Below, piece after piece: positions 10,672 through 20,144 of a stretch of DNA of 22,077 bases (its first letter is position 1; every line of letters starts with the position of its first letter). The stretch comes from a virus: the IMG/VR virus record IMGVR_UViG_3300050821_009405, positions 1 to 22,077 of that record; one strand, given 5' to 3'. The notes under the pieces were generated by a model. That model had not been told where the DNA came from and did no database searches. It worked only from the letters and a program-made list of their open reading frames with translations. The translations under genes and the position numbers were made by a program.

Positions 10672-10974
10672 TCAGCGCTCCGAAACGTTTCGGCACATCT
10701 GACAGATTTCGCGGTCAGTCGTTTCCGTGATGACATATCGCGACGGCCTCAAGCCGCCTGTCGAATACATCCGGCAGGAAGTGTCGTTGCCCACCCAAAG
10801 ATGCGCGCGGGTCTTGGCGCCTCCCTTTCGGCGAACCAAAAACTTCTGCTTTTGTTCGGGGGGGCACGCAAATGGAGGATCCGCCATCGAGGGCAGATCG
10901 CTGACTTTCTCAGCCCGCTCAGCCGTGCGCCGCAGGATCGCGTTGACCTGTTTGCGGGAAGCTTGGCCGCTCAT
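10672..10974 (-). CDS. 100-residue unknown protein with conserved Cys pairs
   Basis: Starts with an ATGA overlap to the GcrA gene and ends one base before the replication protein. The C-terminal half (WVGNDTSCRMYSTGGLRPSR and ICQMC) has the look of a conserved zinc-binding or nucleic-acid-binding module. No name known to me. Confidence 0.7.
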   Translation of the reverse strand: MSGQASRKQVNAILRRTAERAEKVSDLPSMADPPFACPPEQKQKFLVRRKGGAKTRAHLWVGNDTSCRMYSTGGLRPSRYVITETTDREICQMCRNVSER

Positions 10975-11591
10975 GCGTCATCTCCGGGCCAGATATTTTC
11001 CTTCAGCACATGCGTAGTCGGCATCAAAGAGCGCATGTGGGCGATCTGCGCCGGGGTACTCCCCGACCGGCCCCTGGCATCGCCACGTGCGAGCACCGTG
11101 TGCGCCCCGCAATAGCTGCTGCCTTCCCATCGCGGCTGACCGCAGAACCGCACCGGCGTGGCATCAGGCCAGCCACCGATCGGCCAGCGGCAATGATGCG
11201 GCTCCAGATCGACCAGCGCGATGTTCATCGGCTCGACCTCGGCGCAGCGCAGGCCGGCGAGGTTGTCGCGGTGGAATTGGGGGGGCGGCTGGACAACAGG
11301 CTCGGCAGCCGCTTTTGCTCGCTTCAAACGCATGGTCTCTCGACCTTTCTGCAAAAGGTCCCGATTGTGCTGGCGCTGCCGCTCGGTCATGCCGGTGCGC
11401 GACGCTTTCACGCCTAGCCGCATTGCCCGACCGCCAACCGCCGACCGCGTATAGACGGTGCCAAACTTCGCGTTCAGCTCAGCCGCCGCCTGCTCAAACG
11501 TCGCCTTGTCAGCCAGCAGCGCCCTCAGTGCGTTGTCGCGCTCGTCGTCCCAGGCGCGCGTGGCGTTGGTGTTGTTCAAGGGGGCCGGCAT
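10971..11591 (-). CDS. gcrA: GcrA-family transcriptional regulator
   Basis: 206 residues from the ATG at 11591 (GGGGG six bases upstream; TGATG with the preceding gene). The N-terminal domain (AWDDERDNALRALLADKATF to VGGRAMRLGVK, residues 14-62) is the GcrA helix-turn-helix. The C-terminal CRWPIGGWP (134-142), FCGQPR (149-154) and YCGAH (160-164) are the GcrA hallmark. In Caulobacter, GcrA binds sigma70-RNA polymerase and activates promoters carrying methylated GANTC sites. A phage copy in the early leftward operon, with a methyltransferase downstream, could redirect host transcription or drive phage promoters; that role is inference. Confidence 0.88.
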   Translation of the reverse strand: MPAPLNNTNATRAWDDERDNALRALLADKATFEQAAAELNAKFGTVYTRSAVGGRAMRLGVKASRTGMTERQRQHNRDLLQKGRETMRLKRAKAAAEPVVQPPPQFHRDNLAGLRCAEVEPMNIALVDLEPHHCRWPIGGWPDATPVRFCGQPRWEGSSYCGAHTVLARGDARGRSGSTPAQIAHMRSLMPTTHVLKENIWPGDDA

Positions 11592-11734
11592 CAGATGCCC
11601 CCAAACGTCAGTAGCGCTGCCCAAAGATTCCCATTGTGTCGGCGCGGTGACAGGACTAGGGAAAACACGGTACGGTTGTGTCGGGTAGGGTACATAAGAT
11701 GGCGAAGATTCTGCGCTTCCCGCGGCGTCGTCAT
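11591..11734 (-). CDS. 47-residue unknown protein linking Cro-like and gcrA genes
   Basis: ATG at 11734 overlaps the previous stop as ATGA, and its TGA overlaps the gcrA start as TGATG. The peptide is basic and Leu/Thr-rich, with no motif. The exact double coupling makes translation plausible, but it may only serve to carry ribosomes to gcrA. Confidence 0.5.
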   Translation of the reverse strand: MTTPREAQNLRHLMYPTRHNRTVFSLVLSPRRHNGNLWAALLTFGGI

Positions 11735-11982
11735 GCGCGCGTCTCCATGCATGGGCGCGGCACATCTGACGGCCAGGGCTTATCCTCGGGCCAGTTCTCA
11801 TCAAACCAGCCGATCACTTCGTCATATTTGCGTGCGGTAAAGGTCGTCGAACCCTCCGTCACGCGATCGAAGAAGCGCCAATCACCGGCCGCTAAGCGGC
11901 CCAAGGTCGTCAAGCTGAGCTTGCGGCCCGCGACATATGCGGACGCGCACGCCATGAGGTTTGAGCGCAGTTCGGTTTCCAT
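11731..11982 (-). CDS. Small DNA-binding candidate divergent from the repressor (Cro-like position)
   Basis: 83 residues, MET start at 11982. The middle (LSLTTLGRLAAGDWRFFDRV, then FTARKYDEVIGWFDENWP) matches a family often found next to phage repressors in rhizobia; the first part could be a helix-turn-helix. Its promoter overlaps operator 1. The start codon lies so close to the -10 box that the RNA would be nearly leaderless. Cro-like function is inferred from position only. Confidence 0.65.
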   Translation of the reverse strand: METELRSNLMACASAYVAGRKLSLTTLGRLAAGDWRFFDRVTEGSTTFTARKYDEVIGWFDENWPEDKPWPSDVPRPCMETRA

Positions 11983-11990
11983 GGATACAA

Positions 11991-12019
11991 CTCATAGTCG
12001 GAAAACTCCGACCATACAA
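11991..12019 (-). promoter_or_regulatory. Leftward early promoter with operator 1 in its spacer
   Basis: On the minus strand, TTGTAT (12019-12014) and TATGAG (11996-11991) are 17 bases apart, and the perfect operator palindrome at 11997-12012 fills 16 of the 17 spacer bases. The layout mirrors the rightward promoter. The boxes are weak (3/6 and 4/6 matches), but the position right before the 11982 start fits. Confidence 0.5.
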
Positions 12020-12079
12020 GCGGAAAAAGTCGGAAAGTTCCAACTGGTGGAAATCTCCAACTTATCGGATAATTCCGCT
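11997..12079. promoter_or_regulatory. Operator cluster 1 (four 16-bp sites)
   Basis: Consensus GTCGGA-N4-TCCGAC. Site 1 (11997-12012) is perfect. Site 2 (12029-12044) has right half TCCAAC. Site 3 (12046-12061) reads GGTGGA-N4-TCCAAC. Site 4 (12064-12079) reads ATCGGA-N4-TCCGCT and abuts the repressor start codon. Start-to-start spacing is 32, 17 and 18 bases. The sites cover the leftward promoter and the repressor's own promoter, so the repressor should control both. Confidence 0.75.
12068..12073 (+). promoter_or_regulatory. Repressor maintenance promoter -10 box
   Basis: GATAAT (5/6 match to TATAAT) ends six bases before the ATG at 12080, so the expected start site is the A of the ATG and the mRNA would be leaderless. 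The matching -35 region (about 12044-12050) is poor, as in promoters that need activation. Operator 4 covers this box, suggesting autorepression. Confidence 0.45.
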
Positions 12080-12310
12080 ATGAGAGAGGTTGATCGTATC
12101 CGGCAGCGTATCCAGAAGGCCTTGGACAAGGCCGACCTGAGTCCATTCACGCTCGCGCGCGAGCTGAGGTGGGATCGCCACCACCTGGCAGAGTACCTCA
12201 GTGGCAAAAAGGATTCCCTGAAGGTAGAAAAACTCATGGCACTTTCAGATCGACTTGGCATTCCTTTCAATGAGTTAGTGCCGGGCGGCGCGAAGAAGGA
12301 AACCGGCTAG
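12080..12310 (+). CDS. XRE-family phage repressor
   Basis: 76 residues from the ATG at 12080. The helix-turn-helix domain spans about residues 5-66 (LARELRWDRHHLAEYLSGKK, then ALSDRLGIPFNELVP), essentially the whole protein. A longer frame from ATG 11981 exists, but it would translate through four operators and has no ribosome site; the leaderless start is preferred. There is no LexA/CI-type peptidase domain, so RecA-stimulated self-cleavage is not expected; induction would need an antirepressor or protease. It is flanked on both sides by the operators it presumably binds. Likely the lysogeny repressor. Confidence 0.75.
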   Translation: MREVDRIRQRIQKALDKADLSPFTLARELRWDRHHLAEYLSGKKDSLKVEKLMALSDRLGIPFNELVPGGAKKETG

Positions 12311-12354
12311 TCGGATTTTTCCAACTTTTCTCTTGACGGTCGGACTTTTCCGAC
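12310..12354. promoter_or_regulatory. Operator cluster 2 (two 16-bp sites)
   Basis: Site 5 (12310-12325) reads GTCGGA-TTTT-TCCAAC and begins at the last base of the repressor stop codon. Site 6 (12339-12354) reads GTCGGA-CTTT-TCCGAC, a perfect palindrome, and lies between the -35 and -10 boxes of the right operon promoter. Start-to-start spacing is 29 bases, so cooperative binding is plausible. Confidence 0.75.
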
Positions 12355-12360
12355 TATGGT
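12333..12360 (+). promoter_or_regulatory. Rightward early promoter
   Basis: TTGACG (12333-12338, 5/6 match) and TATGGT (12355-12360, 4/6) are separated by 16 bases that are exactly operator 6. Binding of the repressor would exclude RNA polymerase. The expected start is near 12366-12368. It drives the coupled genes from 12385 to the integrase. Confidence 0.7.
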
Positions 12361-12380
12361 GATCTCCGCATCAGGAGATC
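12361..12380 (+). promoter_or_regulatory. Shine-Dalgarno-sequestering hairpin, truncated in promoter-proximal RNA
   Basis: GATCTCC (12361-12367) and GGAGATC (12374-12380) form a perfect 7-bp stem with a GCATCA loop. The 3' arm holds the Shine-Dalgarno GGAG (12374-12377) of the gene at 12385. The 5' arm lies between the -10 box and the expected start site, so RNA made from this promoter should lack it, while RNA reading through from the repressor gene would carry it and be poorly translated. Confidence 0.6.
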
Positions 12381-12384
12381 GCAC

Positions 12385-12597
12385 ATGGCCTTCCGCACCA
12401 TCAACACCAAAGACGCGCATATCGGCCCGAACGGCGTTCGGTACGTCCACGACGCGGCACGCCCGTGGGCTGTGTTGCGCAATTCTCGCCACGGCGAAAT
12501 TTGCGTTGGTCGATATTCGACGGAAAAGGCCGCCAAAAATAGAGCGGCTAACGACCTCGCCTACGTGACCAACGTCCGCGATGCGGAGGTCGCGTGA
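12385..12597 (+). CDS. First gene of the rightward operon, unknown
   Basis: 70 residues, ATG with AGGAG seven bases upstream inside the hairpin. The sequence (GVRYVHDAARPWAVLRNSRH, then VGRYSTEKAAKNRAANDLAY) looks like a small alpha/beta fold often found as an early phage gene. No known function. Its stop overlaps the next start (TGATG). Confidence 0.7.
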   Translation: MAFRTINTKDAHIGPNGVRYVHDAARPWAVLRNSRHGEICVGRYSTEKAAKNRAANDLAYVTNVRDAEVA

Positions 12598-13705: not shown

Positions 13706-14608
13706 ATGAAGATCACCCAACCAGGCATCTATCGCGGCTTGCTGGATGCGGACTATCGGCGCGATCCATGTCCGGTTCCGTCATTCACGCAATCGCTGTG
13801 CAAGATCATCATCGATCGCTCGCCGAAGCATGCATGGACCGCGTGCGAAAGCCTCAATCCAGACTGGCTGCCGGATGACGATCCGAAGTTCGACGTCGGA
13901 AATGCCGCGCATCGGCTTGTCCTAGGTCGCGGCAAGGATTTCGAGATCATCGATTTCGATGACTGGCGCAAGAAAGCGGCGCAAGATGCGCGCCATGAGG
14001 CGGCCAGAGCCGGCAAGATTGCCATTCTGTCACATCAATTTAAACAAGCATTCGACATGGCAGGGCACGTGAGCGTCCAACTTCACAAGCACGAAGATCG
14101 CGATGCCTTCACCAAGGGCTCGGCCGAAGTGATGATCTGCTGGGAAGAGGACGGCATCTGGTTTCGGTCGCTGATCGACTGGCTACATGACGACCTTCGC
14201 ACGATCGACGACTACAAGTCGTCAGCCATGTCGATGGCGCCGCACGTGATCGGGCTGCGCGCCGAGGCCGCCGGCTGGGATATCCAGGCAGCTTTCATCG
14301 CGCGCGGCCTTGACATCCTAGATCCCCAGGGGGCCGGCCGCCGCCGATTCCGCTTCATCGGGCAGGAGACGCAGGAGCCGCACGCGCTGACCGTCATGCA
14401 CATGACCGAGCCCTGGATGACGATGGGGGCCAAGAAGGTGCAGACCGGGATCGATCTCTGGTGCCGCTGCATGCAGACCGGCAGATGGCCCGCCTATCCT
14501 GCCCGCTCACAGACGCCAGAATATCCAGGCTTCAAGGAAAAGCTCTGGCTTGAGCGCGAGCTGAGCGGCGAGTTTGAAAACGATCCAGCAAACCTGATGG
14601 CGGGCTGA
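13706..14608 (+). CDS. PD-(D/E)XK exonuclease, RecE/YqaJ-like
   Basis: 300 residues. The nuclease core is visible: GNAAHRLVLG (65-74, Gly-x-x-x-His motif), Glu141 in SAEVMI, LIDW with Asp158, the DYK motif (Asp169, Lys171), and a Gln at 194 in GWDIQAAF. This is the exodeoxyribonuclease VIII-like fold of phage recombination exonucleases that resect double-strand ends 5' to 3'. It is immediately followed by a RecA-like ATPase, a pairing that stands in for the usual exonuclease/annealase module. Two bases separate it from the previous gene. Confidence 0.82.
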   Translation: MKITQPGIYRGLLDADYRRDPCPVPSFTQSLCKIIIDRSPKHAWTACESLNPDWLPDDDPKFDVGNAAHRLVLGRGKDFEIIDFDDWRKKAAQDARHEAARAGKIAILSHQFKQAFDMAGHVSVQLHKHEDRDAFTKGSAEVMICWEEDGIWFRSLIDWLHDDLRTIDDYKSSAMSMAPHVIGLRAEAAGWDIQAAFIARGLDILDPQGAGRRRFRFIGQETQEPHALTVMHMTEPWMTMGAKKVQTGIDLWCRCMQTGRWPAYPARSQTPEYPGFKEKLWLERELSGEFENDPANLMAG

Positions 14609-14609
14609 A

Positions 14610-15632
14610 ATGAATTACCAAGCTGTACCCGCCATCCGCTCCGAAGAGCCCTTGCTGCTCGGCATGATCGGGCCGCCAGGCGGGGGCAAGACACTATCGG
14701 CGCTGAAGCTCGCGCGCGGTATCCAATCGGTGCGCGGTGGCGACATCGTCGTGATCGACACGGAGGGCGGCCGTTCGCGCAAGTACAACGATCTCATTCC
14801 GTTCAAAATCGTGGAGCTTCCGCCGACTGCTCGGTCGAACGATTTTATCGATTGCATCCAGGCGCAACTGCCTGCGAAGCCGGCAGCCATCATCGTGGAT
14901 TCGATGAGCGACGAACATGGTGCCTATCTCGAATGGCACGATGAGATGGTGCCAAAGTCTGGCAACAACGAGTGGGCCGCGTGGGCAAAGCCATCGGCCG
15001 CTCGCAAGAAGCTTATCGCCGGCATCCTCAAGATCAAGGTGCCGATGATCTTTACCTTCCGCGCCCGCGACAAGACCAAGCAGGAAGGCAAGAAGATAAT
15101 CAGCATCGGCTGGCAGCCGGTCGCACCGCTGGAGATCGTCCACACCCTCGACCTGACCTGCATTCTGCCGCCGCGCGCCGACGGTGTTCCGGTCTGGAAA
15201 TCCGACAAAATCGGCGAGGACTTCATCATCAAGCTCCCGAACTATCTTGCGCCATACATCGAAGCCGGCAAGCCGCTCTGTGAGGAGATGGGCGCGGCGT
15301 TCGCTCGGTGGGCAAAGGGAGATCAAGTTTCGGCGCAGGTTGGAACCCGTGCGCCGGAAACGTCGGCCGCTCCAGCCCCTTCCAGCCCCCAGGCCGGGGC
15401 GGCCGATGATGTTCCGACTGCAGCTGAATACATCCACAACTGGATCGTCGCAATTGACAATGCGACATCGGTACCTCACGGCGTGCAGATGGCGCGAACT
15501 TGGAACGACGAGAAGGCCATCCGCGAGAAGATCGAGTGGCCGGCAGGATCGTTCATCGATCTGCAGCGCAAGGTCAAGGCTGCCATTGCCGCTCTGAAGG
15601 AGCCCGAGGCAGACGCGAGGATTCCGACATGA
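14610..15632 (+). CDS. RecA-superfamily ATPase (AAA_24/Sak4-type) recombination protein
   Basis: 340 residues. Walker A is GPPGGGKT (21-28), a VIDTEGG strand-loop follows (48-54), and Walker B is AIIVDS (93-98). The fold continues to about residue 235; the last 100 residues are a Pro/Ala-rich linker and a helical tail. Such nucleotide-binding proteins in phages, Sak4 being the best known, promote single-strand annealing together with an exonuclease, as placed here. Annealing activity is inferred from family and neighbour. Confidence 0.8.
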   Translation: MNYQAVPAIRSEEPLLLGMIGPPGGGKTLSALKLARGIQSVRGGDIVVIDTEGGRSRKYNDLIPFKIVELPPTARSNDFIDCIQAQLPAKPAAIIVDSMSDEHGAYLEWHDEMVPKSGNNEWAAWAKPSAARKKLIAGILKIKVPMIFTFRARDKTKQEGKKIISIGWQPVAPLEIVHTLDLTCILPPRADGVPVWKSDKIGEDFIIKLPNYLAPYIEAGKPLCEEMGAAFARWAKGDQVSAQVGTRAPETSAAPAPSSPQAGAADDVPTAAEYIHNWIVAIDNATSVPHGVQMARTWNDEKAIREKIEWPAGSFIDLQRKVKAAIAALKEPEADARIPT

Positions 15633-15980: not shown

Positions 15981-16103
15981 ATGTTCGGCATGAACAGCGG
16001 CGACACCTGTTTCGCAATTCTTCTTACGGCGTCTATTGCGCCTGGGCAAAATACTGCGAGCATCGATGGCCGAAACTCTAACGAGTTGTCAGGGAAAACA
16101 TGA
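15981..16103 (+). CDS. 40-residue unknown peptide before ImmA-like copy 1
   Basis: ATG at 15981 two bases after the previous stop; the stop overlaps the next ATG. Contains a short hydrophobic stretch (CFAILLTASIAPG). Coding status rests on position only. Confidence 0.4.
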   Translation: MFGMNSGDTCFAILLTASIAPGQNTASIDGRNSNELSGKT

Positions 16104-16300
16104 CCGACATCGAAGCTGAAGCCAATTCTTTCGCGATGGAGCTTCTAATGCCGACTGAGTTCCTGCTGCGTGATCTGAAGCAGATGGGCGGCATCGATCT
16201 AGCTGACGATGTCCAGATCACGAAGCTAGCAAAGAAGTATCGCGTCGCAATCTCCCTCATGGCGATCCGCATCGGCCAAATCTTAAAGGAACCATTGTGA
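16100..16300 (+). CDS. ImmA/IrrE C-terminus-like mini-protein, copy 1
   Basis: 66 residues. The stretch EAEANSFAMELLMP followed by the LLRDL and DVQITKLAKKYRVAISLMAIR helices corresponds to the C-terminal part of ImmA/IrrE (DUF955) metallopeptidases, where the Glu of EAN is a metal ligand and the final helix-turn-helix-like segment binds partners. The HExxH catalytic helix is absent here and I find none in the adjacent frames. A paralogue at 19953-20144 is 52/63 identical. In phage immunity, ImmA proteases cleave repressors; a version lacking HExxH could be a decoy, partner or antirepressor. Role unproven. Confidence 0.75.
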   Translation: MTDIEAEANSFAMELLMPTEFLLRDLKQMGGIDLADDVQITKLAKKYRVAISLMAIRIGQILKEPL

Positions 16301-19952: not shown

Positions 19953-20144
19953 GTGAATGACATCGAGGCAGAGGCCAACACTTTTTCCATGGAACTTTTG
20001 ATGCCGACTGAGTTCCTGTTGCGTGATCTAAAGCAGATGGGCGGCATCGATTTGACCGATGATGTGCAGGTCGAGAAGTTGGCAAAGAAGTACCGCGTCC
20101 CCGTCTCAATGATGGCGATCCGCATCGGGCAGCTTTTGCGTTAA
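19953..20144 (+). CDS. ImmA/IrrE C-terminus-like mini-protein, copy 2
   Basis: 63 residues; 52 of 63 aligned positions are identical to the protein at 16100-16300. EAEANTFSMELLMP and DVQVEKLAKKYRVPVSMMAI are the ImmA/IrrE C-terminal hallmarks, again without HExxH. The nucleotide sequences differ mainly at third positions, indicating both copies are under protein-level selection. Upstream neighbours differ between the copies, so duplication was of this gene only or is old. Confidence 0.75.
   Translation: MNDIEAEANTFSMELLMPTEFLLRDLKQMGGIDLTDDVQVEKLAKKYRVPVSMMAIRIGQLLR

Follow-up and report, generated by a model that had tools for sequence, protein, structure and literature searches.

A Shine-Dalgarno hairpin within an early phage promoter as a candidate translational insulator between repressor gene and early operon

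We analyzed a stretch of 22,077 nucleotides (the window), which is an IMG/VR virus record (IMGVR_UViG_3300050821_009405). The segment at 12333-12387 very probably joins a repressible early promoter to a translational insulator. The best reading of its sequence is that the insulator stands in for a terminator between cI and a promoter of the lambda PL type. This reading draws on the layout of the segment, its recurrence in relatives, pairing that is kept as the letters change and a signature of RNA rather than of DNA.

The features of the region are listed in Table 1. Rightward, the HTH repressor gene and the promoter are followed by small genes that overlap at TGATG, the exonuclease VIII-like gene, the Sak4-like ATPase gene and, further on, an integrase gene; the exonuclease and Sak4-like genes lie 1.3-2.3 kb downstream of the promoter. 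Leftward, the left gene (phrog_7669) comes first, and a GcrA-like gene, genes for replication and the terminase gene come after it. The 76-aa repressor matched HTH_3 with E=5e-4, which is below the Pfam cut-off, and a local HTH profile, which had included this protein, with E=2e-19. In most named alphaproteobacterial records examined, homologues of the left gene diverge from a gene annotated as CI repressor or as a similar regulator.

Table 1. Features of the immunity region and early operon in the window
Feature	Position	Strand	Remarks
Left gene, 83 aa, divergent Cro-like partner of repressor	11731..11982	-	phrog_7669 E=3e-19
Immunity repressor, 76 aa, Xre/CI-type HTH	12080..12310	+	transcribed toward early promoter; phrog_2328 (transcriptional repressor) E=1e-5
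Operator O5	12310..12325	.	in 22-nt gap, repressor stop to -35; fold -4.4 kcal/mol, z -0.2
-35 element TTGACG	12333-12338	+	promoter scan
Operator O6 GTCGGACTTTTCCGAC, palindromic, fills promoter spacer	12339-12354		exactly 16 nt
-10 element TATGGT; in RNA its bases pair with start-codon region	12355-12360	+	
5' arm of Shine-Dalgarno hairpin, GATCTCC (-6 to +1)	12361-12367	+	folding; re-paired in relatives
Shine-Dalgarno AGGAGA	12373-12378	+	
3' arm of Shine-Dalgarno hairpin, GGAGATC; includes Shine-Dalgarno	12374-12380	+	
First early-operon gene, 70 aa, no family	12385..12597	+	stop overlaps next start (TGATG)
RecE/exonuclease VIII-like gene, same operon	13706..14608	+	phrog_412 E=2e-49; anchor for finding relatives
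Sak4-like / AAA_24 recombination ATPase gene	14610..15632	+	phrog_124, AAA_24

Six TCGGANNNNTCCGA-like operators are located at 11997, 12029, 12046, 12064, 12310 and 12339. The last of these, O6, had been described in the first-pass annotation as exactly filling the 16 bases between -35 and -10, and its coordinates bear this out; its five sister operators flank the repressor gene. The spacer of the left-gene promoter contains operator O1, and O1 and O6 show mirror symmetry. TTGACG/TATGGT was the only sigma70-like match between 10500 and 14000, where about 0.9 would be expected by chance. The promoter score by itself was therefore weak evidence, and the case had to rest on comparison.

The hairpin GATCTCC-GCATCA-GGAGATC lies directly 3' of TATGGT, and the ATG of the first early gene is at 12385. 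The first-pass annotation had proposed a perfect 7-bp hairpin that buries the Shine-Dalgarno sequence. The arms (12361-12367/12374-12380) are indeed perfectly complementary, but the stem exceeds 7 bp and extends as far as the AUG. In folding, the RNA helix extended to 12355-12367/12374-12387 (13 pairs, one U.G and one bulge); it takes in the -10 hexamer at one end and the start codon at the other, so that the AUG is also buried, and its 5' side spans -10 to +1. The fold of the read-through RNA had an energy of -18.7 kcal/mol (z -3.1; one of 200 shuffles was equally stable). The expected +1, predicted from the position of -35 and -10, is 12367/12368, 7-8 nt past -10. A start at this predicted position would deprive 8 of the 9 uninterrupted pairs of their 5' partner; the first-pass annotation had likewise placed the 5' arm before the expected +1. 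The leader left in RNA from 12367/12368 was unstructured (z +1.6), and the computed cost of opening the region from the Shine-Dalgarno sequence to the AUG was 14.2 kcal/mol in read-through RNA and 5.9 kcal/mol in the promoter's own RNA. By these predictions, RNA from the early promoter should lack the 5' arm, whereas read-through RNA carries it.

The absence of a visible terminator after the repressor gene had also been pointed out, and no terminator-like site was found in the 22-nt gap from the repressor stop (12310) to -35. Two candidates were rejected: O5, because of its weak fold (Table 1), and the hairpin at 12361-12380, because no T tract follows it.

Relatives were sought by locus searches with Sak4-like and exonuclease proteins, which yielded 11 and then 63 viral loci, as well as three loci from genome contigs, two of them from Bradyrhizobium; the loci were mostly metagenomic contigs. 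The repressor and the first gene as queries in viral contigs gave no close relatives, and neither a DNA similarity search of phage records nor a Sak4 alignment search of genome contigs gave a match. A direct search for the hairpin pattern found L011 as the sole true relative, the other matches being chance-like. L011 possesses different operators (CCGGTAGGCTTACCGG) at the same position and the stem GTTCTCC/GGAGAAC, which differs from the window stem by a compensated A-T to T-A change. Scanning for TTGAC upstream of the exonuclease gene showed that the layout recurs in many relatives, with unrelated operator and stem sequences.

Sites were then defined without use of the hairpin, by TTGAC, a palindrome in the spacer, a Shine-Dalgarno sequence, an ATG at a distance of 47-63 nt and an ORF. 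Among 57 related loci, this blind selection gave 26 sites, one per locus, upstream of the exonuclease gene; its thresholds were fixed after the first examples had been seen, and the test is thus not fully independent. The Shine-Dalgarno region can pair with the segment from -10 to +1 (to about +3) at all 26 sites (duplex -9.7 to -21.9), among which the operators, stems and first genes differ; the longest uninterrupted stem was just 5-6 bp at six of them. Three control sites elsewhere showed no comparable pairing. With 17 more sites accepted partly on the hairpin, the set comprised 43 element sites, and the layout with re-paired stems was present in at least 40 divergent phages. The identity of elements to their nearest neighbour was at most 73%.

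A covariance model recovered the element, nearly always once per locus. When it was applied to about 200 genomes of the host family, the known prophage and chance-like matches were obtained; this search informs little on prevalence, because only 28 candidates per genome were scored. Two Bradyrhizobium prophage sites reached via the left gene instead of the exonuclease gene (L103 and L107) both had the layout, and four other loci reached in this way gave no site by the same scan. The Bradyrhizobium prophages in NZ_JADPKR010000048 and NZ_JAPRAQ010000010 also carry elements (L028 and L029). The phages with the element are a large group, mostly uncultured soil phages.

Compensatory changes in relatives had been suggested as a check, and the relatives provided them. 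Own arms paired with a mean of -16.0 kcal/mol versus -10.7 kcal/mol for 3' arms swapped between loci, despite CTCC/GGAG-like cores in nearly all, and none of 100,000 arm-swap permutations reached the observed pairing. The covariation score in a plain MAFFT alignment of the 43 sites was 0.315, compared with 0.217 for shuffled and at most 0.195 for slid controls. Further, stems of at least 7 bp occurred at 19 of the 26 blind sites but at only 3.4% of 297 other Shine-Dalgarno-ATG starts in the same loci, where stems of at least 9 bp occurred at 0.7%. A chance match between a C-rich discriminator and the purine-rich Shine-Dalgarno sequence would account for the CTCC/GGAG core of 4 bp, and stems of at least 4 bp were found at half of all Shine-Dalgarno sites. 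However, the pairing past this core was locus-specific and greatly exceeded the background given by other starts. Chance complementarity is hardly credible and is already contradicted by the swap test.

The same symmetric changes between phages would also suit a protein-binding site, and the inverted repeat at 12361-12380, which is palindromic and adjoins the promoter, might be a DNA dyad that serves the repressor or the Cro-like protein as an extra operator over the start site. The mismatched cells argue otherwise. In stems chosen regardless of mismatch type, the non-Watson-Crick cells comprised 12 G.U, one A.C and three others, where not all of the 12 G.U cells are independent, as they include a U.G that related elements share at one position. 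Because a DNA dyad would show no strand bias, the excess of G.U over A.C points to a rightward RNA. Further, the loop length is very variable (3 nt upward), bulges occur, and the Shine-Dalgarno sequence is always within one arm. We consider an operator dyad very improbable. A hairpin that works in the promoter's own transcript, as a thermometer, a protein-controlled leader or a 5' stability stem, with a start further upstream than predicted, also appears improbable, if slightly less so. The +1 is a predicted position, and 3-4 stem pairs would stay in the own transcript in about one-third of the relatives even from the expected +1; the insulator prediction is weaker at sites whose arms reach +3. 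In most loci, however, the start of the 5' arm lies within the -10 hexamer or directly behind it, and a transcript of this promoter would therefore not contain the complete hairpin; the promoter scan gave no second promoter-like site upstream in the window. With a start at the predicted +1, the 26 sites would lose 83% of their stem pairs (median), and at most 4 pairs would be kept in all and at most 2 in 17. The mean computed opening cost was 14.7 kcal/mol for read-through RNA versus 6.6 kcal/mol for own RNA, and it was greater in read-through RNA at each of the 26 sites.

The gene upstream of the element accords with a function as an insulator against read-through. At most sites a co-directional HTH gene ends 3-68 nt before -35, and nine of the ten upstream HTH proteins tested matched phage repressor families. 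According to the local HTH profile, 38 of the 43 element loci had a same-strand upstream HTH gene and none had an opposite one only, whereas the loci called without the element had four same-strand and five opposite HTH genes (Fisher 8e-5), in a post hoc test with few loci of the latter kind, one of which (L086, counted among the four) has the element on inspection, with others among the nine having an unclear organisation. L047/L048 (the same as L009/L010) have a divergent repressor gene and a TTGACA-17-ATAATC promoter with no Shine-Dalgarno hairpin; judged by their sequence, they are a natural control, a single one. The first-pass proposal that RNA started here is translatable and read-through RNA from the repressor gene is not thus gains comparative and computational support, from the number of phages, the opening costs and the co-directional HTH gene upstream in nearly all.

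An insulator at this place might act against incoming transcription generally, such as host read-through or other RNA, and not against the repressor mRNA specifically. The hairpin is present in L031, L033, L052, L074 and L079, where another small gene lies between the repressor gene and the promoter, as would be expected of a general insulator. In most loci, however, the repressor gene directly adjoins the promoter, and presence of the element follows the orientation of the repressor gene. A general role is thus unlikely, while deserving more weight than a dyad or an own-transcript hairpin.

For an insulator directed at repressor mRNA, we infer the following scheme, in which repressor binding, +1, read-through, the translational effect, coupling and Rho all enter as predictions. 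In the lysogen, the CI-type repressor would bind O6 in the spacer and keep the early promoter off. The co-directional repressor RNA would run on into the early operon, because it has the same direction, its stop lies 22 nt before -35, and no terminator is visible. In this read-through RNA, the segment from -10 to +1 would pair with the Shine-Dalgarno sequence and AUG of the first gene and block translation. The next genes would be silenced by lost coupling, because stops and starts overlap; in many loci, such an overlap joins the stop of the first gene to the start of the second. The untranslated RNA may be shortened by Rho. When the promoter fires on induction, RNA from about 12367/12368 would lack the 5' arm and be translated. 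We think it likely that, in an alphaproteobacterial temperate phage lineage, a promoter-embedded translational insulator replaces the terminator between cI and a PL-type early operon. The -10/+1 region would double as an anti-Shine-Dalgarno arm, and one short segment would be operator, promoter and read-through lock, re-evolved or re-paired at each change of immunity specificity.

The comparison with T4 gene e made in the first-pass annotation is apt (PMC3014915). The same start-site-dependent logic of a Shine-Dalgarno hairpin is known for T4 e, soc, 49, I-TevI and segB and for Aeh1 mobE (PMC3014915, PMC2988022). In gene e the effect is about 100-fold (PMC3014915), and the late promoter lies within the 5' arm region (PMC3014915, PMC2988022). 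In this group, as here, RNA from an upstream promoter hides the Shine-Dalgarno sequence and/or the AUG, RNA from a nearby promoter begins within the 5' arm or past it and is translated (a prediction in our case), and relatives have similar leaders. As in the gene e type, the Shine-Dalgarno sequence and start codon of the window lie within a stable hairpin of the upstream RNA, as computed, and compensatory change in relatives keeps the structure. A T4-type late promoter (TATAAATA) is absent from the 5' arm, the promoter being sigma70-like (TTGACG/TATGGT). There, the hairpin belongs to T4 late promoters in a lytic phage and separates late from early expression. In contrast, the present element joins a putatively repressed sigma70-like early promoter to an operator in its spacer; it is found in temperate phages, between the repressor gene and the early operon, and would keep lysogenic and lytic expression apart. 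As read from its sequence, the window element would act like gene e by mechanism and is not a homologue of it.

In the transposase genes of IS10 and IS50, external RNA folds and hides the ribosome site, and RNA from their own promoter does not. There the arm is supplied by the inverted repeat of the element end, and the transposase is guarded from host transcription. In the window, the promoter's own -10/+1 region serves as the arm.

In lambda, the repressor gene is transcribed toward the repressed, operator-bearing promoter of the exo/recombination operon, and the cI-rex RNA is ended by a terminator (t_imm) before PL. The window resembles this PL/OL side, in that the repressor gene is transcribed toward the operator-bearing promoter of a recombination operon (where repression is predicted), and it has a CI-type repressor with a divergent Cro-like gene. 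Unlike in lambda, no terminator is visible, and the Shine-Dalgarno hairpin is found in its place. Read in the opposite direction, the lambda layout has this gene order (cro - cI - PL - exo). As the Cro-like partner of cI is the left gene, which is divergent from it, the early promoter would correspond to PL and not to PR.

Acetobacter phage phiAX1 (L137, 620-700 (-)) possesses a comparable element, with TTGACA, an operator-like palindrome in the spacer and a Shine-Dalgarno hairpin (-17 kcal/mol), before an antirepressor gene among the genes downstream of CI. Unlike in the window, an intrinsic-terminator-like sequence also precedes the element, about half of the arm would stay after +1, and the gene begins with a GTG codon. 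As a named phage, phiAX1 is a possible bench model. In Agrobacterium phage Rivra (L132, 1150-1320 (-)), we observed a PL-type promoter, TTGCAA-[GTGGGATACATCCCAC]-TATAAC, whose spacer is filled by an operator. Rivra was not counted: a Shine-Dalgarno hairpin precedes the annotated gp51, but an in-frame ATG upstream places it inside a possible gp51 extension.

We found no description of such a hairpin in immunity regions in the open-access literature. As far as we found, the logic is that of T4 in a new place and for a new purpose, with lineage-wide conservation, and its conserved use in immunity regions is undescribed. The element would be a compact answer to how a lysogen without a terminator keeps transcription of its repressor gene from activating the adjacent lytic operon, and would connect a strategy known from T4 with the choice between lysis and lysogeny in temperate phages. 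It offers testable predictions for dozens of phages and a sequence signature for locating immunity regions in uncultured phages. Further, the 55-bp part, which comprises operator, promoter and read-through lock, might be used in circuit design.

Several other features of the region were observed. A -10-like GATAAT (12068-12073) lies about 7 nt before the repressor ATG at 12080, and a -10-like TATGAG (11995-11990) about 7 nt before the left-gene ATG at 11982. Because of these boxes, both genes may be leaderless, unlike the early operon, and the left gene probably is. A plus-strand peptide, M[AG]xVIRFPRRRHARAS (window 11699-12310), is kept in seven phages while third codon positions vary freely; it is antisense to the 3' end of the left gene, and its frame continues without a stop into the repressor, which suggests that a long repressor form (about 203 aa) overlapping the left gene and operators may exist. 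The leftward operon encodes a GcrA-like cell-cycle regulator domain (10974-11804 (-), Pfam E=1e-21). Phrog_7669 weakly matched an ORF of about 470 aa (about DnaA-sized) in most Bradyrhizobium genomes. Two near-identical short ORFs, at 16100-16300 and 19953-20144 (+), lie one on each side of the integrase gene and resemble a piece of ImmA/IrrE-type peptidases (MxDIEAEANxFxMELLMPTEFLLRDLKQMGGIDL...).
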